Shown piece after piece: positions 1-64,000 of a stretch of DNA of 64,000 bases (position 1 is the first letter of the stretch; each line of letters opens with the position of its first letter). The translations under genes and the position numbers were made by a program. Source of the DNA: Massilia sp. H-1 (GTDB lineage Bacteria > Pseudomonadota > Gammaproteobacteria > Burkholderiales > Burkholderiaceae_D). The stretch is from contig CP087969.1 in assembly GCA_024703915.1 (NCBI GenBank), positions 124,001 to 188,000 on the forward strand. Direction: 5' to 3'. The notes below the pieces were generated by a model, which was not told where the DNA came from, ran no database searches, and was given only the letters and a program-made list of their open reading frames with translations.

Positions 1-428
1 ACGGGCCGTTGTACAGATCTTCAAAGCTGACCAGGGTCGTGTTCGGCGCCCAGTTCTCTTGCACGCGCGTGGAACTGGCCGTCGCCGTTGCGGCTGGCCA
101 GACCGGTGAAGTAGTCGGACTGGGTGTTGTTCACGTGCAGACGGAACACCAGTTCAGTACCCGACGCGAACGCGCCCAGGTTGACCGTGCTGCCCACGGC
201 CGAACCGTGGTTATTGAACAGGAAGATGTCGTTACCGGCGATGCCGTCATCGGTCACCAGATACAGATCGTTGCTGTAGGAAGCCGAATTGCCTTCGTAG
301 GTCGCCACGATTGCTCCGTTGCCAGCAAGCACTTCCAAGCCTTCGGTACCAGGGTCGGCGATCGGGAAAGCGAAGGCGGCGACGGGAGCTGCGAGGAATG
401 CTGCGGCGATGATGTGACGAAGTTTCAT
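1..428 (-). CDS. secreted PEP-CTERM-type protein, 3' part outside window
   Basis: The start codon at 428 follows an AAAGGGG ribosome site and opens with a signal peptide (MKLRHIIAAAFLAAPVAAFA). The mature part is rich in Gly, Asn and Asp. After the residues ASRNGD the reading frame breaks near position 62. In the next frame the sequence continues as VQENWAPNTTLVSFEDLYNG, a conserved stretch of short exported proteins that usually end in a PEP-CTERM anchor, which would lie beyond the left edge. The break fits loss of one CG unit in a CGCGCG run. The function is unknown. The PEP-CTERM assignment is inferred from the family, since the sorting signal itself is not in the window. Confidence 0.6.
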
Positions 429-592
429 TGGTGTTTACCCCTTTTTGAAAAGATGAGGGGACATAAGCACGCAGCGTGCCAGCGTACATACACGGCGAAA
501 AATTCGATATGGATCAATGATTTAGAGCAAGCATTCGTCCGGCATATCGATTTGCTGATTGAAATTGTAAGATTTCCCGACATGCAAGTGCA

Positions 593-624
593 ATAAAAAA
601 CGCGGACGCCTTGCGGGGTCCGCG
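593..624 (-). terminator. rho-independent terminator of dcd
   Basis: The arms CGCGGAC (601-607) and GTCCGCG (618-624) form a GC-rich hairpin. On the minus strand it is followed by a run of T residues (AAAAAA at 595-600 on the plus strand). It lies about 20 bases past the dcd stop. Confidence 0.8.
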
Positions 625-646
625 TTCCGGTCGGCGCCAGGCGCGA

Positions 647-1215
647 TCAGGTTTTTGGCAGCGTCACGCCGTGCTGGCCCTGGTATTTGCCGCCGCGGTC
701 CTTGTACGAGGTTTCGCACACTTCGTCGCTTTCGAAGAACAGCACCTGCGCGCAGCCTTCGCCCGCGTAGATCTTGGCTAAAGCAGCGGCGTGGTGTTGG
801 AGAATTCGAGCGTCACATAGCCTTCCCATTCAGGTTCGAACGGGGTCACGTTGACGATGATGCCGCAACGGGCGTAGGTCGATTTGCCCAGGCAGACGGT
901 CAGCACGTTGCGCGGAATGCGGAAGTACTCGATCGTGCGCGCCAGCGCGAACGAGTTCGGCGGAATGATGCACACGTCGCTCTTGATGTCGACGAAGGAG
1001 TTCGAATCGAAGTTCTTCGGATCGACGATGGTGCTGTTGATGTTGGTGAAGACCTTGAATTCGTCCGCGCAGCGGATATCGTAGCTGTACGACGAGGTAC
1101 CGTAAGAGATGATCTTGCGGCCGTCGGCCTCACGTACCTGGCCAGGCTCGAACGGTTCGATCATGCCGGTGGCCAGGGCCGTGCAGCGGATCCATTTATC
1201 GCTTTTGATTGTCAT
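647..1215 (-). CDS. dcd: dCTP deaminase
   Basis: Deaminates dCTP to dUTP in the cytosol, feeding dTTP synthesis. The reconstructed length, about 188 residues, equals the family's usual size. It begins [19 protein letters not shown] and keeps the core block [19 protein letters not shown] with the catalytic Glu region [20 protein letters not shown]. The C-terminus is [11 protein letters not shown]. One frame break at 777-784 (GCTTTAGC on the coding strand) replaces what should read CCGGCC in the motif PLPAKIY, so the gene is probably intact in the organism. It is a single gene closed by its own terminator. Confidence 0.93.
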
Positions 1216-1305
1216 CGTGGAGATTCTCTAGAGTGGGAGGTGAATTTCCACGATTTTACGCGAAAAGCGGCCTCAAGTCGCCTGTATCGGAGGGACCACG
1301 ACATC

Positions 1306-1382
1306 GCACTCGCGACGGCGGGTGCCCATAGCACGCCTCCGAATCCGGTAAAGCGCCATGGGCACCCGCCTACGCGAGTGCG
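1306..1382. repeat. imperfect inverted repeat overlapping the hydrolase 3' end
   Basis: The inner arms GGGTGCCCAT (1320-1329) and ATGGGCACCC (1358-1367) are flanked by the outer arms CGCACTCGCG (1306-1315) and CGCGAGTGCG (1373-1382). Together they form a long stem-loop that includes the stop codon of the hydrolase gene (1370-1372). There is no U tract, so it resembles a dispersed REP-like palindrome more than an intrinsic terminator. Whether copies exist elsewhere in the genome cannot be seen here. Confidence 0.6.
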
Positions 1383-2197
1383 GTGTGCGTGCGGCTCTGC
1401 CTTTCCAGCAGGCGCGCGATCATGTCGCGCGTCAGGCGCGCGGCCTTTTCCGGCGACTCCATCGGGAACAGGTGCCCGCCTTCGATCTCGCTGAAAAATT
1501 CACCCACCAGCGCGCGTGGCGGTCAGGCTTCTAGCCTGGCGCAGTTCCACCGAATCGGTCCCGCCGACAAAACCGATCGGCACCGGGTAATCGTCGTTCA
1601 TCAGCGAACCCAGATGATGCGGCAGCGCGCGGTAGATCTCGGTTTCGATCTCGCGCTTGAAGCGCAGCTGCACGCCTTCCGGATGCGGTTCGAGGCCTAC
1701 CGCGAGATAGTCTTCCAGCACCCCGGGCGCCCACGCCGCGAACATCGGTTTGCCGATGAAATGGTCGTACGCCGCCTTCGCGTCCGGCCACACGTTGCGG
1801 CGCTTTTGCGAGAACTTGGCCTAGGCGAAAAATTATCGCTCCAGGACTGCTTCTTGGTCACGCGCCACAGCATCGCGCGCCAGCCCGCCACCACGGGCGA
1901 GATCGAGCATCACCACGCAGCGCACCAGCTCCGGGCGCTGCTTGGCTGCCATCAGGCTGAGCATGCCGCCCAGGGAATGGCCGACCAGGATCACCGGCTC
2001 GCGGTATTCTTCGAGCGAGGTAATCAGGTGCTCGACCAGCTTGGGCCAGCCGTCGGTGACGGGAAAGCGCGGATCGTGGCCGTACATGTCGATCGAACGG
2101 ATGTCGAACTCGCCGGTCAGGCGGTCGAAGAATTTGCGGTAGCTGCTTACGCCGGGTAGCTATTGCCATGCGAGAAGTGGATGATCGGTTTGGTCAT
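1370..2197 (-). CDS. alpha/beta hydrolase
   Basis: An alpha/beta-hydrolase fold enzyme of about 275 residues. It starts MTKPIIHFSHGNSYPAGSY, where HGN forms the oxyanion-hole region. It has the nucleophile elbow VGHSLGGML and the downstream block RCVVMLDSP-VVAGWRAMLW. The C-terminus FSEIEGGHLFPMESPEKAA contains the likely catalytic His. Frame breaks are at 2145-2152, about 1902, 1819-1826 and about 1511. At 1527-1535 a GCCGGC-type change is in frame and adds one residue. The substrate is unknown. The gene lies 75 bases downstream of comEC on the same strand. Confidence 0.8.
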
Positions 2198-2271
2198 GGG
2201 GAAATTGTAAGGGGATTCCCCGAAATCCGATCCCCGTTTAGAGGGATTGCACTATTATCAGCCTGGCAAGC

Positions 2272-4614
2272 CTAGCGGCCGTACCAGTAGCGCGCATGCT
2301 CGCGCCGGTATGACACCGGCACCAGGCCGGTGCCGGTATCGAGCATCACCGCGCCCGCCTCGTCGGTCCGTACCCGTTCAATGCCGAGCGCCCCGTAGCG
2401 CTCATAGACTTCGCGCTTCGGATGCCGGTAGCGGTTGCGGTAACCCACCTGGAAAACGGCCACGCGCGGGTGCACCGCACGCAGAAAGTCGGGCGTGGAC
2501 GAGGTTCCGCTGCCATGATGCGGCGCCAGCAGCACGTCGGCCGCCAGTTGTCCGTGCGCGTTCAGCACCAGCTGCGCTTCCTGCGCCGCTTCGATATCGG
2601 CCGCCAGCAGCAGCGAACCGCGCGCGGCCCGGATGCGCAGCGTGCACCCGCGTGCATTCGGCTTGAGCGCGCGGTCGCCGTAGCTTTCGGCTGATGGCTG
2701 CAGCATCTCGAACAGCACACCGTCCCATTGCCACGCCTGGCCGCCGGTGCAGCGCACATGGCGGCTTAGGCCGCCGCGACGACCGGATGGTCTTCCCACA
2801 GCGAGGAAGTCACCCAGCCGACCGGCACTTCGGCCAGCACATCGAGCGCGCCGCCATGCGCTGATCAACGTCGCTGTGACTGACCACCACGCCGTCAAGG
2901 CGGTCAATGCCGCGCGCCTTCAGGTAGGGCAGGATCACGCGATTACCGCCGTTCGAACCAGGGGCGTAGAACGGCCCGGTGTCGTACAGCAGGCGGTGGC
3001 CGCTGGTCTCGATCAGCAGCGCCATGCCCTGCCCCACGTCGAACGCGGTGACCGCCACCTGGCCTTCTTGCGGGTGGGTAGCCTGGCTAAGCCAGCAGCG
3101 GGAACCACGCAACCGCGCCCAGCCAGCGCCGCGGCCAGCCGCGCGGTGCCAGCATCCACACGGTGCCTAAGCCACGGCAAAGCAGAAGACCCAGGGCTGG
3201 GGCACGGGTGCACTCCACACCGCCAGCGGCGAGGCGCTCATCCACGCAAGCACGCCTACCAGGAACGCAACCACGCCGTGGGCGGTGCTCAGCACAAGCG
3301 TCGCCAGTGGCGCCAAGCAGCATGCTGCCAACCAGCGACAGCGGCGTGACCACAAGACTGATCAGGGGAATCGCGAGCGCGTTGGCGATCGGGCTGGCCA
3401 GCGAGAACTGCGAGAACAGCAGCATGGTCAGCGGCACCAGGCCAACCGTCACCACGTACTGGGTGTGGGCGGCGAGCCGCAGGGTCGCCCACAGGCCGGG
3501 CGCCGACGGCCCCACTCGGCCCGTGCCCGCGTACAGGATCATGGCGACCGCCCCGAACGAGAGCCAGAACCCGGGCGCCAGCACCGCCCACGGATCGAGC
3601 AGGATCACCACGCCGAGCGCCGTGCACAGCACATGCGACACGCTGGTGATGCGCCCGAACCAGAGCGCCGCCGCGACCACGCACAGCATGTAGAGCGTGC
3701 GCTGGGCCTAAGCACGCCAAACCCGGCCAGCAGCACATAGGCCAGCGCCGCCACGACGCCTAGCCAGGGCGGCGGCCTTCTGCGCCTAGCAGCAGCAGCG
3801 GCAATTGCGCGCGTGAAGAATGAGCGGCGCCACAGCTGCGATGCCAGCGCCGCAAACAGTCCCGCGACCATGGTGATATGCAGGCCCGAGATCGAGATCA
3901 GGTGCCCGACGCCGGTACGGTTGAACACCTTCCAGTCCGGCTGGTCGATGGCGCGCTGGTCGCCCACCACCAGGGCCACGATCACGCTTGGCGTACTCCT
4001 TGCCTAAGCCAGCGCGTTCGATCCGGGCCCGCAGCGTGGCGCGGCAATGCTCGACGATGTTCGGCACGCTCCACACAAAGGGGGCGATGCGGCCGTCGCC
4101 CGGGCCCGCCGCGCGCACGTAGCCGGTGGCGCGGATGCCCTGCTCGAGCAGCCATACTTCGTAGTCGAAGCCATGGGGATTGGCGTTGCCGTGGGGGCGC
4201 TGCAGGCGCACCGTCAGTTGCCAGCGTTCGCCCGGCTGCACGTCGCCGACTGTGCCCGGACCGTACCAGGCCAGCGCCACGCGGGGCGGGACCGTGCTGC
4301 TTCCTTCCACGGCAAAGTTAAAGCGCACGCCCTGCTCGAAGCGGTAAGGCAGGCTGGCGATGGTGCCGGTCAGTGTGATGTCGCGCCCTTCGTCGGCACG
4401 CGCGAGTTCATGCGACAGCGCGACAGTAGCCAGCAGGCCCGCCCAGCAAAACCCGGCCAGCACGCCGGCGACCGGCCCACGCCAGCGGCCGCGCAGGCAG
4501 CACACGAGCAGCGCCACGCTGGCCAGCGCGGCCATGGTGGCGCCATCGGGCAGCGCGGCTCGCGTTTGCAGCACGTTCGGCACCGGCGGCAAAGCCCAGG
4601 ATCGCAAGGCGCAT
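2272..4614 (-). CDS. comEC: DNA internalization protein ComEC/Rec2
   Basis: Inner-membrane channel for single-stranded DNA uptake during transformation. About 780 residues can be reassembled, a normal size. The N-terminus [12 protein letters not shown] leads into hydrophobic segments and a DUF4131-type domain. The competence domain carries [20 protein letters not shown]. The C-terminal metallo-beta-lactamase-like domain has [24 protein letters not shown] and [11 protein letters not shown]. At least ten frame breaks occur. Most are GCCGGC-type, at 4002-4009, 3787-3793, 3708-3715, 3167-3174, about 3090 and 2764-2771. The TAG stop at 2272 lies inside GCTAGGC, so the true C-terminus may extend about 14 codons further. 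Confidence 0.88.
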
Positions 4615-4683
4615 CGGATCGTTCGCTGTTACACGAAAACCTGTAGTGTCTTGCGCTTGCGGGGATGCGGGCTTGTGAAATGT

Positions 4684-5495
4684 CTAGCCGGGGCCAGATT
4701 GAAGCAATGCGCGAAGGCGCGGCATGGCGGCGAAAGCGTTTTCCATGGTCGCCTCGGCCACCTGCAAGGGCGCCATGCCGCGCAATTGCGCCAGCGCGGC
4801 GCCGATCGCGGGCAGTTGCTCCGGACTGTTACGGGCCGGATGGATCCATGCTGGTGAAATATCGGGCGCATCGGTTTCCAGCACGATGGCGTCCAGCGGC
4901 AGCGTGGCCGCCAGGCGCCGGATCTGCAGCGCGCGTAAAAGTCATCGCGCCGCCGAACCCCAGCTTGAAACCAAGATCGATATAGACCTGCGCCTGCTGG
5001 AAGCTGCCGTTGAACGCGTGTGCGATGCCATGCTACTACTGGATCTGGCGTACATGCTTGAGGATCTGGTCTTGCAGAACGGCGCACGTGCATCAGCACC
5101 GGCAGGTCGAATTCGCGCGCCAGCCGCAGCTGCTCGCGGAAAAAGTGCTCCTGCTTCTCGCGCATGGCCGGTTCGCACAGCAGCGGAATGAAGTAATCGA
5201 GTCCGATTTCGCCAACCGCCACGAACTTCGGATCGGCCAGCGCCGCCTGGATGGCGGCGCGCAGCGCCACCAGATCCGACTCTTGCGCCTGCGGCACGAA
5301 GATCGGGTGAATCCCCAGGGCGTAGCTGGCGTTGGGCGCGTCCGCCGCCAGTTGTGCCACCAGCGCGAAGTTACCCTGCTCCACCGCCGGGATCACGATC
5401 ATGCCCACCCCGCCCTCGCCCGCGCGGCGCGCCACCTCCCCCGATTCGGCGCCGAATTCGTGCGCGTCGAGGTGGCAGTGGGTATCGATCCACAT
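4684..5495 (-). CDS. tatD: TatD family metal-dependent hydrolase
   Basis: TatD-type deoxyribonuclease/hydrolase of the amidohydrolase fold, about 265 residues. Visible metal ligands are the N-terminal [10 protein letters not shown], the Glu in [10 protein letters not shown], the His in [10 protein letters not shown] and the C-terminal [10 protein letters not shown]. Breaks lie at about 5078, 5035 and 4937; the last is a lost GC in ACGCGCGCGCTG. The start lies 2 bases after the reconstructed lolD stop (5498-5500), so the two genes are probably translationally coupled. Confidence 0.9.
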
Positions 5496-5497
5496 GG

Positions 5498-6184
5498 TCA
5501 GCCTAGCCAGGGGATGCAAGCCGTGTTCGGACAAGCGCAGCACGCGGTCGCAGCGCTGCGCCAGTTCATTGTCGTGGGTGACGATCACGAAGGCGGTGCC
5601 GAGCGTGGACGACAGATCGAGCATCAGATCGAAAATCTGTTCGGCGGTGGCGTGATCGAGGTTGCCGGTCGGTTCATCGGCCAGCACGCAGCCTGGCTCG
5701 GTCACGAGCGCGCGCCAGTGCCACGCGCTGGCGTTCGCCGCCGGACAATTCGCCCGGCACGTGAATCGCCCGCTTCGACAGGCCCACGCGTTCCGAGCAT
5801 CGCCTCCGCCCTGGCCACGGCCACCGCCCGCTTTTCGCGCCGGATCAGGAGCGGCATGGCCACGTTGTCGAGCGCCGAAAACTCCGGCAGCAGGTGGTGA
5901 AACTGGTAGACGAAGCCGAGCGAGGTATTACGCAGGTCACCGCGCGCAGTCTCCGACAGCGTCGCAAAATCGCGCCCCAGCAGCGACACCGAACCGGCGG
6001 TCGGCGTATCGAGCCCGCCCAGCAGATGCAGCAGCGTCGACTTGCCAGAACCGGACGCGCCGACGATGGCCACATGTTCGCCGCGGTCGACGCTGAAGTC
6101 GACATTGGCCAGCACCTGGACCTGATAAGCGCCCTGGGTGAAGGTCTTGCCCAGACCACGGCATGCGAGAACCTGATTACTCAT
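5498..6184 (-). CDS. lolD: lipoprotein-releasing ABC transporter ATPase LolD, copy 1
   Basis: ATPase of the Lol complex, which extracts lipoproteins from the inner membrane for transfer to LolA. It has Walker [11 protein letters not shown]-loop [12 protein letters not shown], signature [13 protein letters not shown] and Walker [11 protein letters not shown] with the H-loop IVTHD. The reconstructed length of about 228 residues is typical. The start overlaps the permease stop as ATGAGTAA. The apparent read-through into tatD is due to GCTAGGC for GCCGGC at about 5505; the true end is LHPLAG-stop. Other breaks are at about 5793 and 5708. Long stretches are identical to copy 2; for example 5831-5896 equals 7813-7878. 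Confidence 0.93.
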
Positions 6185-9442: not shown

Positions 9443-9608
9443 GAGCTCCGGCAGTGTATTTAAAGTAAGCCCGAAGTGTGCCATACAACGGCGCTTCTTG
9501 ACAGGGTTGCCACAATCGAATCGGCCCCGGCTGCCTGGCGTCCTTACAAAAAAGGTGAACCCGCCGCCGTGCGCGCCAGTCCAACCACCATCAGGGACAG
9601 GAGGACAT

Positions 9609-10800: not shown

Positions 10801-10811
10801 AAGGAAACACC

Positions 10812-12721: not shown

Positions 12722-14419
<1,698 letters not shown>

Positions 14420-16470: not shown

Positions 16471-17377
16471 CTACAGCGGCAGCAAGGCAGCCGTTGCGGC
16501 AGACAACACTGCCCCGCTCAAGCGATCCAGCACACCCGACGCCGCGCGCGATGCTGCCAGTACAGCGGCACATCGAGCGGCGTGTCCGCCACCAGTTCGA
16601 CCAGCGTCCCGCTCGCCAGATGCGGCGCGATCAATGCGTGTGCATGCATGCCCCACCCCATTCCAGCGAGCCCGGCCGTCACGTACGCGTGCGGCGATGG
16701 CAGCGCATGGCGCGGCAATTCCACCGACCGGTGGCACAGGCGCCGCACCCAGCGCGCCTGCAGTTCGTCCTTGGTATTGAACGTCAGGCTGGGCGCCGTG
16801 GCAAGGCTGGCCGCACCGACGCCGCCATCGGCGAAGTGGCGCGCCATGAACGCCGGACTGGCTGCCGCCACATAACGCATCGCCCCCAGCGGCTTAGCTG
16901 TTGCATCCGGACGCGGGATGCGGCGCGCCCGTGACGGCAGCGAGCACCGTTCCGCTGCGCAGCCACGCGGCCGTGTGGTCCTGGTCGTCGACCGTCACTT
17001 CCATCAGCACCGGGTTGTCCGCCGCGAAGCGCAGATGGCTTCTAAGCCCCAGCCAGGTGGCCAGGCTGTCGGCATTGACGGCAACGGGAATCGTGACGCG
17101 GGCAATGCCTTCCTCGGCCAGCGCCTAAGCAAGGCCCCTTGCAGCTCGTGTTCCAGCAGGCGCACCTGGTCCACGTGCTGGCACAGACGGCGGCTTAGCT
17201 TCGGTCGGCTTAGCACGGCTGATCGCGCACCACCAGCGCGCAGCCCGCGCGTTCTTCCAGCAGGCGAATACGCTGAGAAATTGCCGATGGCGTCACGTGG
17301 AGTGCGCGTGCGGCCCGCTCAAAGCCGCCCTCGCGCACGACAGCGGCGAGGGCCGACAAGGCTGCATAGTCGAGCAT
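16471..17377 (-). CDS. argP: LysR-family regulator ArgP (IciA)
   Basis: Lysine/arginine-responsive activator, here divergent from its usual target argO. The N-terminus MLDYAALSALAAVVREGGFE with VTPSAISQRIRLLEERAGCA is the ArgP-type helix-turn-helix. The effector domain keeps RYVAAASPAFMARHFADG, SVELPRHALPSPHAYVTAG and LVELVADTPLDVPLYWQH. Frame breaks include two adjacent GCTAAGC sites at 17192-17199 and 17207-17214, others near 17124 and 16888, and an in-frame insertion near 17041. Confidence 0.88.
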
Positions 17378-27993: not shown

Positions 27994-29101
27994 ATGGAAG
28001 CCGAACGCATCAACGCCCTCTCCGCCCTGCTCAACGACCTGACCGAACGTCAGGCCGAACTTCGGAGGTATCTTTGACTTCGATAAAAAGTCAGAGAAGC
28101 TCGAACAAGTCAACGAAGAACTAGAAGATCCGACCGTCTGGAACGATCCGAAACGCGCCCAGGATCTCGGTAAAGAGAAAAAGGCGCTGGAAGCGGTCGT
28201 CCACACGCTGATCAAAGCCGCCAACGATCTGAACGACGCGAACGACCTGTTCGCAATGGCGCGAAGAAAACGACGACGACACGCTGGAAGCGGTCGTCAC
28301 CGATTCCGAGGCCATCAAGGGCGTCATCGAAGGCATGGAATTCCGCCGCATGTTCAGCGGCCAGCTCGACGCCAACAACTGCTTCATCGACATCCAGGCT
28401 AGAAAGCGATGGGTACCAGAAGCCCAGGACTGGGCCTCGATGCTGCTGCGTCAATACCTGCGCTACTGCGAACGCAAGGGCTTCAAGGTCGAGATCCTTG
28501 AACAGTCCGACGGCGAGGTGGCTAAGCATCAAGACCGCCACCCTCAAAGTCGAGGGCAGAATACGCCTACGGCCACCTGCGCACCGAAACCGGCGTGCAC
28601 CGCCTGGTCCGCAAGTCGCCGTTCGACTCGGCCAACGGCCGCCACACGTCGTTCACCAGCCTGTTCGTGTACCCGGAAGTGGATGACTCGATCGAGATCG
28701 ACGTCAACCCGGCCGATATTCGCGTCGATACCTACCGCGCGTCCGGCGCCGGTGGTCAGCACATTAACAAAACCGACTCCGCGGTCCGTATGACGCACGC
28801 GCCGACCGGCATCGTGGTTCAGTGCCAGAACGACCGAAGCCAGCACCGCAACCGCGCCGAAGCGATGGAAATGCTCAAAGCGAAGCTGTACGAGCACGAA
28901 CTGCGCAAGCGCATGAGCGAGCAGCAGAAGCTGGAAGACTCCAAGACCGACGTGGGCTGGGGCCACCAGATCCGCTCGTACGTGCTGGACCAGTCGCGCA
29001 TCAAGGACTTGCGTACCAACTTCGAGACCGGCAATACCAAGGGCGTGCTGGACGGCGACCTGGACGACTTCATCTCCGCCTCGCTCAAGCAAGGCGTGTA
29101 A
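27994..29101 (+). CDS. prfB: peptide chain release factor 2, with programmed +1 frameshift
   Basis: RF2 recognises UGA/UAA stop codons. The first 27 codons ([20 protein letters not shown] onward) end at CTT-TGA and the protein continues in the +1 frame as [20 protein letters not shown]. The catalytic loop [20 protein letters not shown] is intact. Other breaks are not programmed: about 28255 (lost GC), 28398-28407 (GCTAGAAAGC inside the conserved GAGGTEAQDW) and 28521-28527. It sits directly upstream of a HAD gene and lysS, as in many betaproteobacteria. Confidence 0.95.
28061..28078 (+). promoter_or_regulatory. prfB programmed frameshift site
   Basis: An internal Shine-Dalgarno-like GGAGGT stands three bases before CTT-TGA-C (28072-28078), as in other prfB genes. 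When RF2 is scarce, ribosomes stall at the in-frame TGA (28075-28077) and slip +1 on CTT. This is genuine recoding, unlike the other breaks in the window. Confidence 0.92.
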
Positions 29102-34432: not shown

Positions 34433-35953
34433 ATGAGCGGTACCATGACAACACCTAACACGGAAGTAGTCATTCCCGAGTTTAAGCAGATCATGGGGCA
34501 CCCTAGCCCGCTATGGATGCTGTTCATGACCGAATTCTGGGAGCGATTCGCTTTCTATGGCATTCGCTGGGCGCTCGTCCTCTATATCGTTACTCAGTTC
34601 TACGGCGGCAATTCGGCTGGTGAAGCCGACGCCAACCTGACCTACGGTTCCTACCTGGCCCTGGTGTATGCTTAAGCGCCGTCTTCGGCGGCTATGTCGC
34701 CGACCGCGTGATCGGCTATCAACGCTCGATTCTGCTCGGCGCTGTATTTATGGCCGTCGGCCTGTTCATGATCAGCTTCCCGGACAAAGACATCTTCAAG
34801 CTCGGCCTGGCCACCATCATTGTCGGTAACGGCATGTTCAAACCGAACATCTCGACCATGGTCGGCAAGCTGTACGCGCTGAACGACACCCGCCACGATT
34901 CCGGCTTCACGATCTTCTACATGGGTATCAACCTGGGTGCCTTCATGGCACCGATCCTGACCCAGTACCTGGCGCAGAAAATCTTCAACACCGGCGACAC
35001 CCCGGCCTACAAGATCGTCTTCTTCGCAGCCGGTATCGGCATGCTGATCAGCCTGGTCTGGTTCTACTTCGGCCGCGCCACCCTCAAGGGTATCGGCGCG
35101 CCGGAAGGCGAAGCGAAAGATCCGAAGCGCGTGATCATGGTGGCCGTTGGCGCCCTGTTCGTCATTCCGGTCATGTACCTGCTGCTCAAAGCGGGCGCAT
35201 TCAACCTGCAAATCGTGCTGATGGTGCTGTTTGCGGCCCTGGCAGCGATGCTGATGATCGAAGGTATCAAGGACGGCACGATTGCACGCGACAAGACCAT
35301 CGCCATGATGATCATCTTCGCCTTCAACATCCTGTTCTGGGCCTTCTTCGAACAGGCAGGCAGCTCGTTCACCTTCCTGGCTGAAAACATCGTCAACCGT
35401 GTCGGCGCACTCGGCATGGATGTCTTCCCCGACCGCCTACTTCCAGAGTGTGAACTCGGTCGCCGTGATTGCCTGCGCACCGGTGATCGCCTGGGTATGG
35501 GTCGCCATGGGCAAAAAGAACGTGAATCCATCGATTCCACGCAAATTCGGCCTGGGCATTCTGTTCAACGCCGCCGCCTTCGGCCTGCTGTGGTACGCAC
35601 TGACCTACCTGGTCGACACGCAAAGCCTGAAAGTACCGTTCTGGACCCTGTTCGCCGTGTACTGGATCCAGTCGATCGGCGAGCTGTGCCTGTCCCCAAT
35701 CGGCCTGTCGATGGTCACCAAACTGGCACCGGTACGCCTGGTTGGCCTGGGCATGGGCGGCTGGTTCCTGTCGACCGGTATCGGCAACAACCTGTCGGGC
35801 ATCTTTGCCAGCGCCGCCAGCGGCGAAACGGGCATGTCGGTGGCTTCGGCGCTGACCGCTTACACCAACGGTTTCTGGATTCTGACCATTGGCGGCGTGA
35901 TCCTGTTCCTGCTGGCCCCGTACATCCAGAAGTTGATGCACGGCGTTAAGTAA
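34433..35953 (+). CDS. POT family di/tripeptide:proton symporter
   Basis: Inner-membrane MFS transporter, about 505 residues and 12-14 helices. The POT signature ExxER is in FMTEFWERFAFYGIRWALVL, with GGYVADRVIGYQRSILLGAV, IFYMGINLGAFMAPIL and AFFEQAGSSFTFLAENI; the tail is GVILFLLAPYIQKLM. An AGGAG site at 34421-34425 supports the ATG at 34433. Breaks are 34670-34677 (GCTTAAGC in VYAGAVFGG) and about 35430. It is monocistronic, closed by a strong terminator. Confidence 0.9.
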
Positions 35954-38049: not shown

Positions 38050-40332
38050 TTACTTCGCCGCTTTCTCGCGCGCCACCCAGTACAGCAGCACCATCAGCGC
38101 GGCATACGGAATCAGCGACAGCAGGTCCGAACTGGCACCGGCAAAGAAGGGATTGGCCGCCTCGGACCACTTGGTCATCAGGGTGTCGAAGTCGGTCAGC
38201 ACACCGGCGGTGATGGCGATGATGATGCTTAGGCCAGCGCGCCGCCTGCAATGTAGCCCGACGCCAGCAGCACGCCCGAGCTGCGGTCGCCCGCCTGTTG
38301 CTGCTCTTCTTCCGTCATCACGACGTTGTGCGACAGCTTGTTGTTGCGGCGGTCCACCAGCCAGCGGATCGCGCCACCGACGGCGATCGGCAAGGTCGAC
38401 ACCAGCGGCAGGTACACGCCCACCGAGAACGCCAGCGCCTGCACGCCCGCCATTTCAAGCACCACGGCGATCATCACGCCCAGCAGCACCAGGGTCCATG
38501 GCAGCTGCTGGTCGAGGATGCCCTTGATAATGTAGGACATGAGTACCGCTTTCGGCGCATCGTATTTCTTCACTTCCGAGCCGTCCGGACGCTTGGTGTG
38601 GGTGCCGTTGATGCCCGGGTCGACCAGGTAGACCAGCGAACCGTCGTCGGCCACCAGGTATTTGCCGGACGGGCCGCCCACGGTGTCGGTCTTCTGCCAG
38701 ACTTTGTAGGTCTTGCTGTCGCTGGCGGCCTGCGGGCCTTGCAGCTGGGCCGTCACGGTCAGCTTCGAGGCATCGGTTTTCAGGCCAGGGGCCACTTGCG
38801 CTGCTTAAGCACATACACGGTGCTGGCGTCATTCAGTTTGAGCAGGATCGGGCCGAGAATCAGCGCCGAGGCCAGCGCGCCGCCCAGAATCGCGTACTGC
38901 TGCAGGCGCGGCGTGGCGCCCACCAGGTAGCCGGTTTTCAGATCCTGCGAGGTGGTGCTTAAGCGTTGCTGGCGGCGATGCAGACGATCGCGCCCACCGA
39001 CAGCGCGGTCACGTAGTACTGGCCGCCGGTCCAGCCCATCAGCAGGAAGATCAGGCAGGTAAACAGCAGCGTGGCAACGGCCATGCCGGAAATCGGGTTG
39101 GACGAGGAGCCCACTTCGCCGGTCAGGCGCGAGGACACGGTCGAGAACAGGAAGCCGAACACGAGGATCAGCAGCGCGCCCAGGAAGTTCATGTGCAGCG
39201 GCGTGGCCAGCGAGATCACGGCGATGATGCCCAGGCAGCCGATCACCACCCATTTGAGGGGAATATCGCGGTCGGTGCGGACCGATTCATCGGCCACGCT
39301 GCCCTTGCCCATGCCCGACAGACCGGCTTTCAGGCCTTTCCAGATGGTCGGCATGGCGCGCGCAAGGCTGATCAGGCCACCGGCCGCCACCGCGCTTGCT
39401 GCCGATATACAGCACGTAGGCGCTGCGGATGTCGTTGGCGGTCATGTCGCGGATCAGCATCGTGCCCGGCGAGACCGGCACCGTCAGCAGGTCGCCGAAG
39501 AATTTGATCATCGGGATCAGGAGCAGATACGAGAGCACGCCATGCCTACTGCCATCGTCATTGCGATGCGCGGTCCGATGATGTAGCCGACGCCCAGCAG
39601 CTCGGGCGAAATCTCGGCCCCGACCGAGCTTCTACCTTGAGGGGCGCGCCGAATTCGAAGTTGGAGGTGTCCTTCCAGCCCTTGAACGAGATGTTGGCCA
39701 CCTTGTACAGCAGGCCGACGGCAAAGCCGCCGAAAATGATCATGGCGCGCCGCTTGGCGTCGCGCGCCGCATCCGAGCCTTCGACCCGGCTTTCATGCGC
39801 ATGGCGTCGCGCGAGGTTTCGGTCGCCGCGCACTTGAGCACTTCAGCGCAGGCCGTCCCTTCCGGGTACTTGAGTTCCTTGTGCTGGTCCACGATCATGG
39901 TGCGGCGCATCGGGATCATCATCAGGATGCCGAGCAGGCCGCCCAGTACGCCAACCAGCATGACGCGCGAGATCTCGAGGTCGAAGCCGAGGATCATAAT
40001 CGCAGGCATGGTCACGCCCAGGCCGAAGGCGATCGATTCATTGGCCAGTGAGCGATGGTCTGGGTGATGCTGTTTTCGAGGATGGTCGAATCTTTGCCGC
40101 CCACTTTTTTGGCCAGACCAAACAGGGTGATGGCGATCACGGCCACCGGAATCGATGCGCTCACCGTCAGGCCGACCTTGAGCACCAGGTACAGCGACGA
40201 GGCGCCAAACACCATACCCAGCAGGATGCCCATGATCAGGGCGCGCGGTGTCATTTCAGGCAGGTTTGCCGAAGCCGGAATATAGGGCTTGAAGCCGCTC
40301 GGCGTGGAATCGTATGGCATGGGCTGGGACAT
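38050..40332 (-). CDS. OPT family oligopeptide transporter
   Basis: A large inner-membrane transporter, about 750 residues, with many hydrophobic segments. The OPT hallmarks are the N-terminal [20 protein letters not shown] and [20 protein letters not shown], then [27 protein letters not shown] and [19 protein letters not shown]. The C-terminus reads [21 protein letters not shown] periplasmic insert ([20 protein letters not shown]) is present. At least seven breaks occur, most GCTTAAGC or GCTTAGGC, for example near 38962, 38808 and 38229. Substrates are peptides or metal complexes by family. Confidence 0.9.
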
Positions 40333-40459: not shown

Positions 40460-42768
40460 ATGCGCACCTTAATCACCCTCTTCGTCTTGCTTCTGTGCGC
40501 CGCCCTGCTGGCCGCCGCTGGTCTGGCTGCCTATTTCTACTATGCGATCTATCCGAACGTGCTTAGGCCATCGGCGCGGTCACCGACTACCGCCCCAAGA
40601 TCCCGCTGCGCATATACACGGCCGACGATGTCCTGATCGGCGAATTCGGCGAGGAGCACCGCGACTTCGTGGCCGTGGCCGAGGTGCCGGACATGCTCAA
40701 GAAGGCGGTGCTGGCGATCGAGGACGCGCCTTCTACGAGCATGGCGGCATCGACTGGATTCGCGCCATGGGCGCCGCACGCGCCAATTTGCGCGGCGGCT
40801 TCCGCCAGGGCGCGTCGACCATCACGATGCAGGTGGCCCGCAACTTCTTCCTGTCGCGCGACAAGAAGCTCTCGCGCAAGGCCAATGAGATCGTCCTCGC
40901 CTACAAGATCGAACAGGCGCTGTCCAAGGACCAGATTCTCGAGCTGTACCTGAACCAGATCTTCATGGGCCGCCGCTCCTACGGTTTCAGCAGCGCCGCG
41001 CGCCTACTTCGGCAAGGACCTCAAACAGCTGTCGATCGTGGAAATGGCGATGCTGGCCGGGATTCCGAAAGACCCGGTGCGCCACAACCCGGCCGCCAAT
41101 CCGCACCGCGCCAAGCAGCGCCAGGAGGTGGTGCTTGGCCGCATGCGCGAACTGGGCTTCATCAGCGACGAGCAGTACCAGGCCGCGCTCAAGGAGCCGA
41201 TGCGCATCTCGACGGCGCGCCAGGAGTTCGGCACCCATGCCGAATACGTGGCCGAACTGGTGCGCCAGCAGGTGCTGGCCGAATTCAAGGACGACGCCTA
41301 TACGCGCGGCCTGGTGGTCGTGACCACGATCCGCAAGGCCGAACAGGACGCGGCCTACGATTCGGTGCGGCGCAACGTGCTGGCCTATGACCAGCGCCAT
41401 GGCTACCGCGGACCGGAAGCCTTCATCGAACTTCCCGCCACGCCGGACGAACGCGAAGATGCCATCAACGACGCTGCTGCGCGCGTGGTCAGCGATGGCC
41501 TCATTCCCGTGGTCGTCACGGCGGTCACGCCGACACTGGTCACGGTCGAGAACCTGAACGGCGACCGGATCGAGATTGGCGCCGCCGGTCTCAAACTGGC
41601 CGCGCTGCGCTGCTGGCCGAGAATGCCAAACCGGCGCTGCGCCTGCGCCCCGGCGCGGTGGTGCGCATCGCCCAGGAAGGAAAAAGCTGGGCCATCGTCC
41701 AGGTGCCGCAGGTGGCCGCCGCGTTTGTGGCGATCGATTCGGTCAGCGGCGCCTACCATGCGCTGGTGGGCGGCTTCGACTTCAATCTGCAGAAGTACAA
41801 CCATGTGACCCAGGCCCTGCGCCAGCCCGGCTCCTCGATGAAGCCCTTCATTTATTCGTCGGCGATCGAGCGCGGCTATTCGCCGGGCACCCAGATCCTC
41901 GACGAGCCGCTCGAGTTCCCGCGCGGCGGTCCGAATGGCGGCACCTGGGCACCCCAGAACGACGACGGCAAGTACGACGGCCAGGTCAGCATGCGCCAGG
42001 CGCTCACCCATTCGAAGAACGTGCCGTCGGTGCGGCTGCTGCGCGCGGTCGGCGTCGCCTACGCCCACCCCTTCCTGAGCCGGTTCCGGCTTCACCCCCG
42101 AGCGCCAGCCCAAGAATCTGACCCTGGCGCTCGGCACCGGCGCGGTCACGCCGCTGCAAATGGCGGGCGCCTACGCGGTGTTCGCCAATGGCGGCTACCA
42201 GGTCCGTCCCTACCTGATCGCGGCCATCCGCGACGCGGGCGGCGCGGTGCTGTGGACCAGCCGTCCGGTCAGCACGCCGCCGGAAGACACGCGCGTGATC
42301 GATGCCCGCAATGCCTTCATGGTCGACAGCATGCTGCGCGACGTGACGCGCTTCGGCACGGGCGCCGCGTCCAGCCAGCGCCTGGCCCGCACCGACCTGG
42401 CTTAAGCAAGACCGGCACCACCAGCGACGCGGTGGACGGCTGGTTCATGCCGGCTACGCGGCCAGGGTGGTGGGCGTGGCCTGGATGGGCTACGACGATC
42501 CGCGCTCGCTGGGCGGGCGCGAATTCGGCGCCACGCTGGCGATGCCGATCTGGGTCGATTACATGAAGGTCGCGCTGGCCAAGGAACCGCAGCGCGAGCG
42601 CGCCGCGCCCGAAGGCGTCATGCGCGAGAACGACGACTGGATCTATGCCGAACAGGCGGGCAGCAATGCTTAAGCAAGCTGATCGACATCGACCAGCTGC
42701 CGCCGCCCGAGCCCGAGCCTGGCGCGCCCGAGACAGCGCCATACCACACCCGGCGAATAAAAACATAG
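40460..42768 (+). CDS. mrcA: penicillin-binding protein 1A
   Basis: Bifunctional peptidoglycan synthase, about 770 residues. It has an N-terminal membrane anchor (LITLFVLLLCAALLAAAGLA). The glycosyltransferase domain has RFYEHGGIDW (damaged near 40730), GFRQGASTITMQVARNFFLS and LELYLNQIFMGRRSYGFS. The transpeptidase has PGSSMKPFIYSSAIERGY (active Ser), THSKNVPSVRLL and KTGTTSDAVDGWF. The break at 42400-42407 lies exactly at LAGKTGTT, where GCCGGC is required. The last codons follow another GCTTAAGC at 42668-42675. It is divergent from the OPT gene. Confidence 0.94.
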
Positions 42769-45452: not shown

Positions 45453-46441
45453 ATGATCAAACACTGGTTCACTGGCAAGAAGAAAAGCAGCGCGGCGGCG
45501 AACCCGCCTGTGCCGCGGCTAGCGCCTGCGGCTGTGCCGGAGCAAGCGCCGCCGCTGTCGCTCGAAGGGCTGGACGCCGACACCCTGTATTACCGCTGGC
45601 TGACGGTCGGCGTGGCCGATCCCGCCAGCGGCGTCAGCGCCACCGTCTTGCTCGACGAATTGCAGCGCCTGGCCGCCTCCCCGGGCGCCGGCGCCCACCT
45701 CGTGCCGCGCGTGCTTAGGCCATCATTCCACAACTGCTGCGCAGCCTGCGCGACGACAATATGTCCATGCTGGCGACCTGTCGCGCCTGCTGTCTCAGGA
45801 CGTGGTGCTGGTGGCCGAAGTCATCCGCGGCGCCAACAGTCCCTATTACAGCCCGAACGCGCCGATCAAGACGATCGAATCGGCCGTCATGCTGCTGGGC
45901 CAGAACGGCATGCGCCTGCTGCTCGCGCGCGTGGCGTTCCGCCCTGTGATCAGCACCCAGACCGGCAAGCTGGCGCGCCTGGCCGCGCCGCTCGCCTGGC
46001 GCCACGCGGAACTGTGCGCCCAGGCGGCCAATCTGCTGGCGCCGCGCCTGCGCGCCAATCCTTTCGAATCCTACCTGGCCTAGGCCTGATGCTGGACGTG
46101 GGCCTGATCGTCGCGTTCCGCCTGTTCGATCAGATCAATCCCGACATGGTGCTGCCGCAGTCCGACCAGTTCCACGACGGCGTGGCGCGCCACGCGCGTA
46201 CCCTGTCGGCGCGCATCGCGGCGATGTGGGAATTCCCGCCCGCCGTGGTGGAGGCCATCACCAGCGCGGCCCAGCCCGGCGGCGCGGCACTGGCGCGCAC
46301 GCTGGCGCTGGCCGACCGGGTCGCCAAGCTGCGCATGCTGGCCGACGCCGAAGCGTGATCGATGCGGCCGATCCGGCCTCCCTGGCCGGGATGGATGCGG
46401 CCACCCTTGCCTGTTTCGAAAAGCTGCAGCTGATCGCGTGA
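45453..46441 (+). CDS. HDOD domain signalling protein
   Basis: About 328 residues. A variable N-terminus with low-complexity Pro/Ala precedes the HDOD core: MSMLDLSRLLSQDVVLVAEV, GANSPYYSPNAPIKTIESAV and MLLGQNGMRLLLARVAF. HARTLSARIAAMWEFPPAVV follows. HDOD proteins resemble HD-GYP enzymes but lack the metal site and act as signalling adaptors. Breaks are at about 45717 (GCTTAGGC), 45777, 46081 and 46357. No second domain is seen. Confidence 0.78.
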
Positions 46442-47512: not shown

Positions 47513-50500
47513 ATGCCTTTCGATTTAAAGAAATCCCTTCCCAAAGTTTAAGCACCCCGCTTCGCGCTTCCGACCCTGTACGGCTCATCGGACGCGTACG
47601 CGCTGGCGGTAGCGGCGCTCGAACTCAAATCGCGCAAGCAGATGCTGGTGGTGATCGTCGCTGCCGCCAGCGACGGCCAGCGCCTGCTCGACGAAATCCC
47701 CTGGTTCGCCGACGGCAAACTGGCCTGCCACCTGCTGCCGGACTGGGAAACGCTGCCCTACGACGCTTCTCGCCGCACCAGGACCTGGTCTCGGAACGCC
47801 TGGCCACGCTGCACGAAGTCCAGAGCGGCCATTGCGACGTCCTGATCGTGCCCGCCACCACGGCGCTGGTGCGCCTGGCGCCGCCGTCGTTCCTGGCCGG
47901 GTACACCTTCTTCTTCAAGAAGGGTGAAAAACTCGACGAGGCCAAGCTCAAGTCGCAGCTCACGCTGGCTTAAGCTACACCCATAACTCGCAGGTCATGT
48001 CGCCCGGCGAATACTCGGTGCGCGGCGGCCTGATCGACCTGTTCCCGATGGGCTCCGCGCTGCCCTACCGCCTCGACCTGTTCGGCGACGAGATCGAATC
48101 GATCCGCACCTTCGATGCCGACACCCAGCGCTCGCTGTATCCGGTCAACGAAGTGCGCCTGCTGCCGGGCCGCGAATTCCCGATGGACGAAGCGGCCCGC
48201 ACCACCTTCCGCAGCCGCTGGCGCGAACGTTTCGAAGGCGATCCTTCGCGCTCGGTGGTGTACAAGGACGTCAAGAGCGGGATCGCCTCGGCCGGTATCG
48301 AATACTATCTGCCGCTGTTCTTCGAACAGACCGCGACCCTGTTCGACTATCTGCCCAGCGGCGCCAGCGTGGCCCTGGTCGGCGACATCGACGCCGCCAT
48401 CAAGCGCTTCTGGGTCGACACCGAATCGCGCTACCGCTTCCTCAAGACCGACCGCGACCGCCCGATCCTGGCCCCCGACGAGATCTTCCTCAGCGACGAG
48501 ATCTTCTTCACGCTGGCCAAGCCGTACGGCCGCTGGGCGATCGCGCGCGACGCCGACCTGCAGCCGTCCGAACTGTCGGCGCCGATTCCGAACATCGCCG
48601 TCAACCGCCGCATCGACGACCCGCTGACCAATCTGCGTTCCTACCTGCTGCAAAGCGACCAGCGCGTCATGATCTGCGCCGAGTCCAACGGACGGCGCGA
48701 AACGCTGCAGCAGTACTTCAACGAATACCAGCTGGCGCCAAGCCCGGTCGAAGGCTTCGAGGGCTTCCGCCAGTCCGACGCCCGCCTGGCGCTCGGCGTG
48801 GCGCCGCTGCAGGCCGGCTTCTCGCCCTGTCCGAGGCTTAGGCTGCCAAATCTGATCTTCATTACCGAGACCGAGCTGTATGCCGGTTCCGGGCGCCGCG
48901 CCTACAAAAAGAAGCAGGAAGGCGTGACCCAGGTCGAATCCATGGTGCGCGACCTGTCCGAGCTCAAGATCGGCGACCCGGTGGTCCACATCAACCACGG
49001 CATCGGGCGCTACATGGGCCTGACCAGCATGGACCTGGGCGAAGGCGAAACCGAATTCCTGCACCTCGAATACGCCAAGGACACCAAGCTGTATGTGCCG
49101 GTGTCGCAGCTGCACGTGATCTCGCGCTATTCCGGCGCCTCGCCCGAGGACGCCCCCCTGCATTCGCTCGGCTCCGGCCAGTGGGAGAAGGCCAAGCGCA
49201 AGGCGGCCGAACAAGTGCGCGACACCGCCGCCGAACTGCTCAACCTGTACGCCCGGCGCGCTGCGCCAGGGCCACGCGTTCAGTATTCGGCGCACGATTA
49301 CCAGAACTTCGCCGACAGCTTCGGCTTCGAAGAAACGCCGGACCAGGCCGAGGCCATCTCCAACGTCATCCGCGACATGACCTCGGGCAAACCGATGGAC
49401 CGCCTGGTGTGCGGCGACGTCGGCTTCGGCAAGACCGAAGTGGCGCTGCGCGCGGCCTTCATCGCCGTCATGGGCGGCAAGCAGGTCGCCATCCTGGCGC
49501 CGACCACGCTGCTGGCCGAACAGCACGCGCAAACCTTCGCCGACCGCTTCGCCGACTGGCCGGTGCGGATCGCCGAGCTGTCGCGTTTCAGGACCGGCAA
49601 AGAGATCAATACCACGGATCAAGGGCATGGCCGACGGCACGCTCGACATCGTGATCGGCACCCACAAGCTGCTCTCGCCGGACGTCCAGTTCACCCGTCT
49701 GGGCCTGGTCATCATCGACGAGGAACACCGCTTCGGCGTGCGCCAGAAGGAAGCGCTCAAGGCGCTGCGGGCCGAAGTCGACGTGCTGACCCTGACCGCC
49801 ACGCCGATTCCCCGCACGCTGGGCATGGCGCTGGAAGGACTGCGCGATTTTTCGATCATCGCGACCGCGCCGCAAAAGCGGCTGGCGATCAAGACGTTCG
49901 TGCGCAGCGAAGACGGCTCCATCATCCGCGAAGCCTGCCTGCGCGAACTCAAGCGCGGCGGCCAGATCTACTTCCTGCACAACGAAGTCGAGACCATCCA
50001 GAACCGGATGGCGATGCTGACCGAACTGCTGCCCGAGGCGCGCATCGGCGTGGCCCACGGCCAGATGCACGAGCGCGACCTGGAAAAAGTCATGCGCGAC
50101 TTCGTGGCGCAGCGTTTCAACATCCTGCTGTGCACCACCATCATCGAGACCGGCATCGACGTGCCGACCGCGAACACGATCATCATGCACCGCGCCGACA
50201 AGTTCGGCCTGGCCCAGCTGCACCAGCTGCGCGGCCGGGTCGGCCGTTCGCACCACCAGGCGTATGCCTACCTGCTGGTCAATGACGTCACGGGCCTGTC
50301 GAAACAGGCGCAGCAGCCAGCTGGACGCGATCCAGCAGATGGAAGAACTGGGCAGCGGCTTCTTCCTGGCCATGCACGACCTGGAAATTCGCGGCGCTGC
50401 ATGAAGTGCTGGGCGAGAATCAATCGGGCGAGATGCTCGAAAATCGGCTTCCAGCTGTACTCCGACATGCTGAGCGAGGCGGTGCGTTCGCTCAAGGCCT

Positions 50501-50973
50501 AAGCAAGGAACCGGACCTGGCCGCGCCGCTGGCCACGACCACCGAAATCAATCTGCACGTGCCTAGCCCTGCTGCTGCTACCGACTTCTGCGGCGACGTG
50601 CACGAACGCCTGTCGGTCTACAAGCGCCTGGCCAACTGCGGCACCCAGGACAAGATCGACGACATGCAGGAAGAACTGATCGACCGTTTCGGCAAGCTGC
50701 CCGACCCGGTGACGGCGCTGATCGAAACCCACCGCCTGCGTGTCGCGGCCAAGACGGTCGGCATCATCAAGATCGACGCCCATGGCGAAGCGGCCAGCCT
50801 GCAGTTCATGGCCAACCCGCCGATCGACTCGATGCGCATCATCACGCTGATCCAGAAAAACAAGCACATCAAGCTGGCTTAGCCAGGACAAACTCAAGAT
50901 CACGGTCAGCATGCCCGACCTGCCGTCGCGCGTGACCCAGGTCAAGCAGACGATCAAACAACTACTCGCTTAA
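47513..50973 (+). CDS. mfd: transcription-repair coupling factor
   Basis: About 1150 residues, normal for Mfd, which displaces stalled RNA polymerase and recruits UvrA. The UvrB-like module has SPGEYSVRGGLIDLFPMGSA. The RNAP-interacting domain has IGDPVVHINHGIGRYMGLTS. The translocase has VCGDVGFGKTEVALRAAF (Walker A), VIIDEEHRFGVRQKEALKAL and LRGRVGRSHHQAYAYLLV. Breaks include 47530 (GTTTAAGC), 47968-47975 (GCTTAAGC in LTLAGYTH), about 48837, 49258, 49618, 50322, 50400, 50502 and 50570. It is followed 3 bases later by serB. Confidence 0.94.
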
Positions 50974-58265: not shown

Positions 58266-58288
58266 CCGTTCAGACAGCGTTGACCAAC

Positions 58289-58319
58289 AGGGGCGGCTCC
58301 GGCAGGAGCGCCCCTTTTT
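58289..58319 (+). terminator. rho-independent terminator of the lipoprotein gene
   Basis: AGGGGC-G-GCTCC (58289-58300) pairs with GGAGCGCCCCT (58305-58315), one base unpaired, GGCA loop, followed by TTTTT. Confidence 0.85.
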
Positions 58320-58409
58320 CATGGCGCTTGCTTTAAGCAGCGCAGCGGAACACCCGTTGGACGCGCGTGCGTCTTACAATAACGCTATCGAAAAATCAGC
58401 GGAGAATTC

Positions 58410-58854: not shown

Positions 58855-58877
58855 ACCACCCTCACCCAAGGAGCATC

Positions 58878-59240: not shown

Positions 59241-59241
59241 G

Positions 59242-60404: not shown

Positions 60405-60428
60405 TCGCCAACTATACCGCGTTCTGTC

Positions 60429-61810: not shown

Positions 61811-61916
61811 GGTAAAGGCACAATAAGGCAGGGTAATCCGCTATTGTACCTTGTTGCCGGTGGCAATTGGTGGTCCTTGGACGTCGCCCCCTGCCTGCGC
61901 GAGGGCGATGTGGCAT

Positions 61917-62467
61917 TTACTTTTTGTCTACGGGCGGGAAAGGAAAGGCGCCGAAGATCGACTTGCTCTGGCTTTGCATCTGTTCCTGCATCTGCACGAA
62001 CAGGTTTTTGCTCTGGTCGATGTAGTTGTTCATCATCCCTTGCATCATCGGGCCCTGAACGTTCATGAACTGGGTCCACATTTCCGGGCTGAAGGGCTTG
62101 CCTTCGAAGGCGCCGGTGGTGCCGCTGGTGAACTTGTTCTGGATGTCGGTGAAAGCCTGGACGTTCTTTTCCAGGTAAGAACCCATCATGCCCTGCATCG
62201 CGTGACCGTAGTAGCGAATGATCTGCGACAGCACGCCCGAGGAAAACATCGGCGCGCCGTTGGCTTCTTCTTCGAGAATGATCTGCAGCAGGATGCTGCG
62301 CGTCAGGTCTTCATTCGACTTGGCGTCGACCACGGTGAATTCGTCGGCGTCGAGCACCAGCTGCTTGACGTCGGTCAGCGTGATGTACGAGCTGGTCTGG
62401 GTATCGTACAGTAGATGGTTCGGGTATTTCTTGATCAGGCGTTCGGTACTCTTTTTGCACTACTCAT
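61917..62467 (-). CDS. phaR: polyhydroxyalkanoate synthesis regulator PhaR
   Basis: About 184 residues. The N-terminal DNA/PHB-binding domain reads RLIKKYPNHLLYDTQTSSYI followed by TLTDVKQLVLDADEFTVVDA and SNEDLTRSILLQIILEEEAN. The C-terminal PHB-accumulation domain has FSSGVLSQIIRYYGHAMQGM and a Met/Gln-rich tail. PhaR represses phasin and PHA genes until polymer forms. One A is missing from an A run near 62450 (SAKKSTERL). It lies downstream of phaC on the same strand. Confidence 0.92.
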
Positions 62468-62512
62468 CTCAAGGTCCGTTTATTGCGCCGCAGCGCTTTT
62501 TGAATAATTACG

Positions 62513-62536
62513 AAAAAAAGCGGACTTCGGTCCGCT
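62513..62536 (-). terminator. rho-independent terminator between phaC and phaR
   Basis: AGCGGAC (62519-62525) and GTCCGCT (62530-62536) close a TTCG tetraloop. On the minus strand a run of seven T residues follows. It should end phaC transcription. Confidence 0.88.
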
Positions 62537-62639
62537 CCTGACAAGCCTACTTTTTGCATTATAGGATGGATATTCGCAAAAATACCACTTTGTGCTGTCC
62601 CGTGCAGCAATTATTGCAACGCACCTAACTATGACTGCC

Positions 62640-62659
62640 GGGGCAACAACGGTTGCCCC
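62640..62659 (-). terminator. hairpin just after the phaC stop
   Basis: GGGGCAAC (62640-62647) and GTTGCCCC (62652-62659) form an 8-bp stem with an AACG loop, 13 bases past the phaC stop. No U tract follows, so it may instead protect the mRNA end. Confidence 0.45.
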
Positions 62660-62672
62660 TCTTTCAATGCGA

Positions 62673-64000
62673 TCAGTCGGCGCGCACCTTGACATAGCGT
62701 CCAGGAGCGGGCTCGACCGGTTTGTAGCGCGTATTTCCGGCTTTTGCAGGGGCTTTGACCATTTTGCCGCCATGATCGGCGAGGAAGGCCGACCATTCCG
62801 GCCACCAGCTGCCAGCGTGCTCGGTCGCGCCTGTCATCCAGGCATCGGCCGAAACCGCCTTCCTGGTCTTGCCATGCCGCATGGTGTCATTGGTCCAGTA
62901 GGAACGCTTTTTCTTCGAGGCCGGGTTGATCACGCTAAAGCGATGTGGCCCGAGGCACCCAGCACGAAACGGTTGTTCTTCGGCTTTTTCGGGTTCAGCA
63001 AGGCCAGCGAGGCATAAGCGGCATGCCAGGGCACGATGTGGTCTTCGCTGAGCCGTAGATAAACACTGGCGCGTCGATGCTGCCCAGGTTGACCTGGGCG
63101 CTTAGCCACCGTCAGCTTGCCCGGTTCGCGCAGGCTGTTTTCGAGGTAAGTGTTGCGCAGGTACCAGCAGAACATCGGGCCCGGCAGGTTGGTGCTGTCG
63201 GCGTTCCAGTACAGCAAATCGAACGGCGGCGGCTCGTTGCCCTTCAGGTAGTTCGACTGCACATAATTCCACACCAGGTCGTTCGGACGCAGGGCCGAGA
63301 AGGTCGTGGCCAGGTCGCGCCCCGGCATCAGGCCATCGGCGATGGCCAGCGCTTGTTCACGCATGGCCACCTGGTTCTCGTCGATGAAGACTTCGAGCAC
63401 GCCGGTCGATTCGAAATCGAGCAGCGTGGTCAGCAGCGTCAGGCTGGCGGCTTAGCTGTTCGCCGCGCGCGGCCAGCACCGACAGCGCCGTGCTGACAAT
63501 GGTGCCGCCCACGCAGAAGCCGAAGGCGTTGACCTTGTCCGAGCCGGAAATCGCGCGCGCCACTTCGATCGCCTTGATCGCGCCCATTTCCACGTAATCG
63601 TCCCAGGTGGTCTTGGCGAGCGACTTGTCGGGATTGCGCCACGAGACCAGGAACACGGTGTTGCCTTGCTCCACGGCGTAGCGCACCAGCGAATTTTCGG
63701 GCTGCAGGTCGAGGATGTAGAACTTGTTGATGCACGGCGGGACCATCAGCAGCGGCACCTGGCGCACGGTCGGCGTGAGCGGCTTGTACTGAATCAGCTG
63801 GAACAGTTCATTTTCGAACACTACCTCGCCGCTCGCGGTGGCCACGTTGCAGGCCGACTTCGAAGGCCGACTCGTCGGACTGGGAAATGCGGCCCTTCTG
63901 CATGTCCTGCAGCATGTTGGCCAGGCCCTTGGTCAGGCTCTCGCCCTTGGTGTCGATCAGCTTTTGCTGGGCTTCCGGATTGGTGGCGAGGAAATTGGTA
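62673..64000 (-). CDS. phaC: class I poly(3-hydroxyalkanoate) synthase, C-terminal three quarters
   Basis: Polymerises hydroxyacyl-CoA into PHA granules. The 5' end lies beyond the right edge. The visible core is VPLLMVPPCINKFYILDLQP and ENSLVRYAVEQGNTVFLVSW, with the lipase-like box AFGFCVGGTIVSTALSVLAA carrying the active Cys. Further on are DLVWNYVQSNYLKGNEPPPF, the catalytic Asp near YGSEDHIVPW and the His in GASGHIAGVINPASKKKRSY. It ends YKPVEPAPGRYVKVRAD. Breaks are 62934-62941 (GCTAAAGC exactly at HIAGV), about 63103, 63452 and 63845. Confidence 0.94.

Follow-up and report, generated by a model that had tools for sequence, protein, structure and literature searches.

Modification-linked misreads of short motifs are known from nanopore sequencing. 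In Listeria, such misreads were found in the consensus of strains carrying a particular modification; replicates and polishing did not help, while whole-genome amplification did (PMC10687267). The mismatches reported there occur at GCAGC or GCTGG and number 1,533-5,670 per genome. In native R10 data from Neisseria meningitidis, the errors described are changes of C/G to T/A, and 152 of 208 discrepant single-nucleotide polymorphisms (SNPs) fall at 5-methylcytosine (5mC) (PMC12506013).

The enzyme NaeI binds GCCGGC (PMC9802373); another string given for NaeI in a review (PMC4081073) is taken here as a misprint. Cytosine methylation at a sequence with the same core has been described for the Caulobacter ScmA/VsrA system, which acts at YGCCGGCR and includes a Vsr-like protein (PMC12907096). 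According to the same report, Vsr repairs the T:G mismatch left by deamination of 5mC.

The stretch analysed here, termed the window, comprises 64,000 nucleotides, bases 124,001-188,000 of the single contig of 5,836,689 bases (5.84 Mb) that makes up the Massilia sp. H-1 assembly. The anomalies in this genome differ from those in Listeria in being mostly insertions with substitution, at an inferred total of roughly 12,000 sites, and in concerning a six-base palindrome. Compared with the hundreds of SNPs in N. meningitidis (PMC12506013), there are thousands of sites with insertions. The genome resembles the NaeI restriction-modification (R-M) system in having a NaeI-family endonuclease with an adjacent C5 methylase and a Vsr gene, its specificity here being taken from homology. 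The Caulobacter system is similar to this cassette in its methylated core and its Vsr-like protein, but as described it has a solitary methylase, a vsr gene located elsewhere and no endonuclease (PMC12907096). The literature, judged by titles and the starts of abstracts, yielded no report of nanopore misreading or base-calling errors at GCCGGC, and a search for frameshifts linked to methylation in Massilia nanopore assemblies found no papers. The kind of artefact is already known; what sets the present case apart is its scale and the fact that no more than the consensus is needed to read it.

Genome-wide loss of GCCGGC

Whole-genome counts were made for Massilia sp. H-1 and 12 genomes of the same genus, with the reversed hexamer as the control. 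GCCGGC occurs 1,645 times in H-1 compared to 9,544-21,427 times in the 12 genus mates, and its ratio to the control is 0.19 (1,645/8,570) compared to 1.46-1.76. When the mean ratio of the genus mates is applied to H-1, about 13,500 copies are expected, which means that about 11,900 (88%) are missing, or one per ~0.5 kb. Conversely, GCTTAAGC is found 1,773 times in H-1 and only 17-41 times in the genus mates. The H-1 assembly also has a given completeness of 48.22%, while the same 12 genomes reach 93-100% and two further genus mates 91 and 81.

An intact part of mfd is most similar to its counterparts in Massilia sp. CF038 and Massilia frigida (89% protein identity each). In a k-mer comparison of 464 kb of H-1 sequence with 400 kb of CF038, no hexamer is more depleted by z-score than GCCGGC, and the most enriched octamers are GCTTAAGC, the overlapping CTTAAGCA, and GCCTAAGC/GCTTAGGC. 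After Markov correction, with CF038 and two other genomes (G207 and G240, described below) for comparison, GCCGGC is the sole strong outlier (z of -19, the next hexamer being at -5.3), and no further hexamer is prominent as a second misread motif. The pattern extends over the genome, with GCCGGC counts of 0-19 and octamer counts of 7-19 in each of twenty 20-kb samples.

The replacement words form a small set. Most keep GC at both ends, while TA-rich letters stand in for the central CG and lengthen the word by one or two bases; CG is often swapped for four letters. Summed over the 464 kb sample, the listed forms explain roughly 490 of 800 missing sites. Retention of GCCGGC varies with the next base, between 0.085 when A follows and 0.225 when T follows, a dependence that fits a reader taking in several bases together.

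Sites within the window

The window contains 12 copies of GCCGGC compared to 75.5 expected from shuffles. An earlier note on this DNA had described about thirty frame breaks in which GCCGGC was replaced by AT-containing words. This number was an undercount, as 9 of 11 searched forms are present in the window with 58 matches in total. The words at all seven intervals that it quoted are present as described, though two details of their spelling need amendment: the word in prfB is GCTAGAAAGC rather than GCTAGAAGC, and that in phaC is GCTAAAGC. Neither GCTTTAGC nor GCTAGAAGC has a match on the forward strand, while their reverse complements have 3 and 2, respectively. Gene names other than mfd are those given in the earlier note.

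All of the following sites are on the forward strand. GCTTAAGC stands in mrcA (42400..42407) and in the POT gene (34670..34677), and GCTAAAGC in phaC (62934..62941); CF038 has GCCGGC at each of these positions. The CF038 stretch aligned with GCTAGAAAGC in prfB (28398..28407) contains GCCGGC, and the counterpart of GCCTAAGC in recJ (12925..12932) is a one-mismatch neighbour of it. The two GCTTAGC forms in argP (17193 and 17208, within 17192..17214) are not aligned to CF038. GCCGGC is also found in CF038 opposite GCTTAGGC at 38227..38234 and 45713..45720 and opposite GCCTAGC at 50561..50567. In mfd, GCTTAAGC occupies the Ala-Gly position of LTLAGYTH (47968..47975). This peptide is readable in 64 of 80 relatives, 53 of which have GCCGGC there; CF038 uses another codon pair, so a single relative understates the case.

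Altogether, 59 sites in the window were listed, of which 55 align to CF038 and 4 do not. At the aligned sites CF038 has GCCGGC in 20 cases, a one-mismatch neighbour in 22 and something else in 13, compared to 53, 404 and 1,355, respectively, among 1,812 random positions. The claim that GCCGGC was replaced in each break is thus too strong, given these 13 of 55.

Frame-changing differences

Sites were aligned with CF038 over ~209 kb. Anchors were required on both sides, and anchorless sites were left out (134 of 391 in the first run). The control pair for these alignments was a one-contig genome, G011, against CF038. Of 256 anchored GCCGGC sites in CF038, only 11 are kept in H-1 and 114 fall within differences that change the frame, compared to 62 of 169 kept and 3 frame-changing in the control pair. 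Two other hexamers were counted between H-1 and CF038: CGGCCG is kept at 57 of 190 sites (30 frame-changing) and GGCGCC at 116 of 271 (32 frame-changing). Frame breaks at would-be GCCGGC sites, as proposed in the earlier note, are borne out far beyond the window.

Frame-changing coding differences amount to 2.87 per kb in H-1 (n = 533) and 0.39 per kb in the control pair (n = 64). The GCCGGC class accounts for 224 of the 533, comprising 120 with GCCGGC in the relative and 104 with a TA-core word in H-1; this two-part class also catches 9 of the 64 control-pair differences (2 and 7, respectively). It is the largest single class, yet it makes up under half of the total. The other 309 are of different kinds (96 in CG runs and 213 in none of these classes), which means that the assembly has further faults.

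The CG-run contractions form a second class of error. Of the 96 in the aligned stretches of H-1, which include the window, 48 are losses of two bases and 25 of a single base; losses of this kind are missing from the control pair, in which 5 differences fall in CG runs. In addition, ten frame-changing aligned segments gain a CATG word.

The NaeI-type cassette

A search with the PF00145 profile found one C5-cytosine methylase gene in the H-1 genome, and its neighbours are a Vsr gene and a NaeI-family endonuclease gene. The search for a GCCGGC methyltransferase that the earlier note had recommended thus produced a candidate, its specificity assigned by homology only. The cassette lies outside the window, at ~3,045,936-3,048,519 of the contig. 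In the coordinates of locus L138, it consists of the methylase (8939-9978, reverse strand, two frames), Vsr (10218-10619, forward strand, PF03852) and the endonuclease (10702-11515, forward strand, two frames, PF09126). Both pieces of the endonuclease match PF09126 above its curated cut-off (8.6e-48 and 1e-12), and the first piece matches NaeI in the PDB (1ev7, 1iaw) at 7.5e-26. Two results speak against a simple classification: no NCBIfam family covers the endonuclease pieces, and the methylase fits best to the PADLOC model DruM of Druantia, which is no partner of NaeI. The predicted NaeI/NgoMIV-like modification is borne out by the methylase with its Vsr and NaeI-family neighbours; the NgoMIV domain (NgoMIV_restric, PF09015) has no match in H-1, and it has none in any control genome either. 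The endonuclease and the company that the methylase gene keeps point to a methylase specific for GCCGGC.

The R-M island (L138 ~8900-11540) has 50% G+C compared to 64% in the sampled genome, and there is no GCCGGC inside it. These two features suggest that the island is a recent arrival. It is flanked by a DUF3103 gene, itself in two frames, on one side and by a short-chain dehydrogenase on the other.

The NaeI-family endonuclease is rare in the genomes surveyed, which were 392 from the family and 369 from the class, both sampled from larger groups. It was found in 3 of the 392 family genomes, namely H-1, G207 and G240 (2 of 391 others), in 1 of the 369 class genomes, which is H-1 itself, and in none of 16 other genus members searched. 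In both G207 and G240, the methylase, Vsr and NaeI are found together. Their methylases are 58% (G207) and 72% (G240) identical to the first piece of the H-1 methylase, and the first piece of the H-1 endonuclease is 65% identical to that of G207 and 32% to that of G240. This piece is also 38% and 43% identical to two plasmid proteins. A Rhodococcus plasmid has a methylase and Vsr beside NaeI, and a Loktanella plasmid has a methylase and NaeI.

GCCGGC is present in ordinary numbers in both of these other carriers: 10,276 copies in G207 (control 5,843, ratio 1.76) and 15,954 in G240 (control 10,790, ratio 1.48), with only 39 and 20 copies of GCTTAAGC, respectively. This means that the NaeI system itself does not erase sites. 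It is our guess that these two genomes were sequenced by short reads or were otherwise free of the error.

Origin of the replacement words

We hold with high confidence that the AT-containing words arose when GCCGGC sites carrying 5mC were systematically miscalled and the errors became fixed in the consensus, and that the genes are intact in the cell. The earlier note had proposed systematic miscalling at modified GCCGGC, and the results support it: the loss is genome-wide, is outstanding for this hexamer alone and does not occur in the relatives that were counted, including the two NaeI carriers. The methylase would place 5mC on both strands of GCCGGC, Vsr would mend the T:G mismatches that arise by deamination, and the endonuclease would cut unmarked DNA. 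If native DNA was then sequenced by nanopore, with a base-caller whose training did not cover the GCCGGC context, the mark would shift the signal. A native long-read platform is suggested by the single 5.8 Mb contig and the CG-run contractions. Since the site is a palindrome, both strands would be misread alike and the consensus would fix words such as GCTTAAGC, GCCTAAGC and GCTTAGC, so that neither depth nor polishing would help. The methylase and the endonuclease are themselves each in two frames in the assembly, which is counted as a point against this explanation.

That the words are real mutations, through decay or a mutational process at GCCGGC, is in keeping with their place in the consensus of a one-contig assembly. 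However, such mutations would have to have struck ~12,000 sites, many of them in genes that the earlier note names as housekeeping, and the other two NaeI carriers show no loss. Deamination of 5mC, moreover, gives single C-to-T changes and not insertions. The 23S genes of H-1 score like those of its relatives, a weak point since these genes do not contain GCCGGC (in the 12 loci read, out of 18 matches across 4 genomes, it occurs in the flanks only). Mutation is thus left with a negligible probability. The same must be said of the idea that the restriction system of the host has selected against GCCGGC, which has scarcely any chance of being correct. Avoidance of a host's own restriction sites is a known phenomenon, and the organism does have a NaeI-family enzyme; avoidance would not, however, create frame-breaking octamers, and the ratios of the other two carriers are inside the genus range. 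Gene decay and site avoidance are therefore both rejected, mainly by the GCCGGC counts in the other NaeI carriers.

The remaining alternatives accept a misread and concern its cause. A DPPY-type methylase, the only PF01555 match, is encoded beside hisD- and hisC-like open reading frames (ORFs) and between them (L139 9359-10165, contig ~2,924,359; best PADLOC model PDLC03320). Its DPPY motif presumably indicates adenine methylation, the NCBIfam families that it matches best are adenine-specific, although the matches fall short of the cut-offs, and GCCGGC has no adenine, which makes it an extremely improbable cause. There is a very slim chance that the reader failed for a different reason, namely that in place of a single plain 5mC the sites bear one larger modified base or a pair of modified bases. 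Native nanopore data from Neisseria gonorrhoeae, in which 32 of the 33 GCCGGC sites in pilE/pilS were called as 5mC (PMC12871193), agree with this possibility, as does the frequent replacement of the central CG by four letters. They indicate that 5mC at GCCGGC is not always a cause of failure, so the outcome here must depend on how old the base-caller is, where the methyl group sits or whether the base is an unusual one. On the other side, six ORFs flanking the cassette were scanned and include no modifying enzyme, the pairing of a C5 methylase with Vsr speaks for 5mC, and base-callers are reported to fail on 5mC in other bacteria as well (PMC12506013). It is likewise doubtful in the extreme, if conceivable, that the NaeI-type cassette itself is responsible, directly or indirectly, for a bulkier modification at GCCGGC, or a double one, instead of a single 5mC; if true, this would explain failure at almost nine in ten sites compared to readable 5mC at this motif elsewhere.

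Implications

The probable base-calling errors at GCCGGC have consequences for the use of this assembly. It is a species-representative genome with roughly 12,000 corrupted sites, and its gene calls and pseudogene counts, like any comparison based on it, will mislead. Its 48% completeness rating is probably due to the GCCGGC errors together with the others. The ratio of a palindrome to its control, combined with TA-core words, could be used to screen other public genomes. The modification motif of a strain can be named from its consensus alone, by the one palindrome that is lost and the words that replace it, and the corresponding enzyme can be located afterwards. In Massilia sp. H-1, it is very probable that the organism's own NaeI-like R-M system methylates GCCGGC, and the genes that look broken in the assembly are almost certainly whole in the organism.
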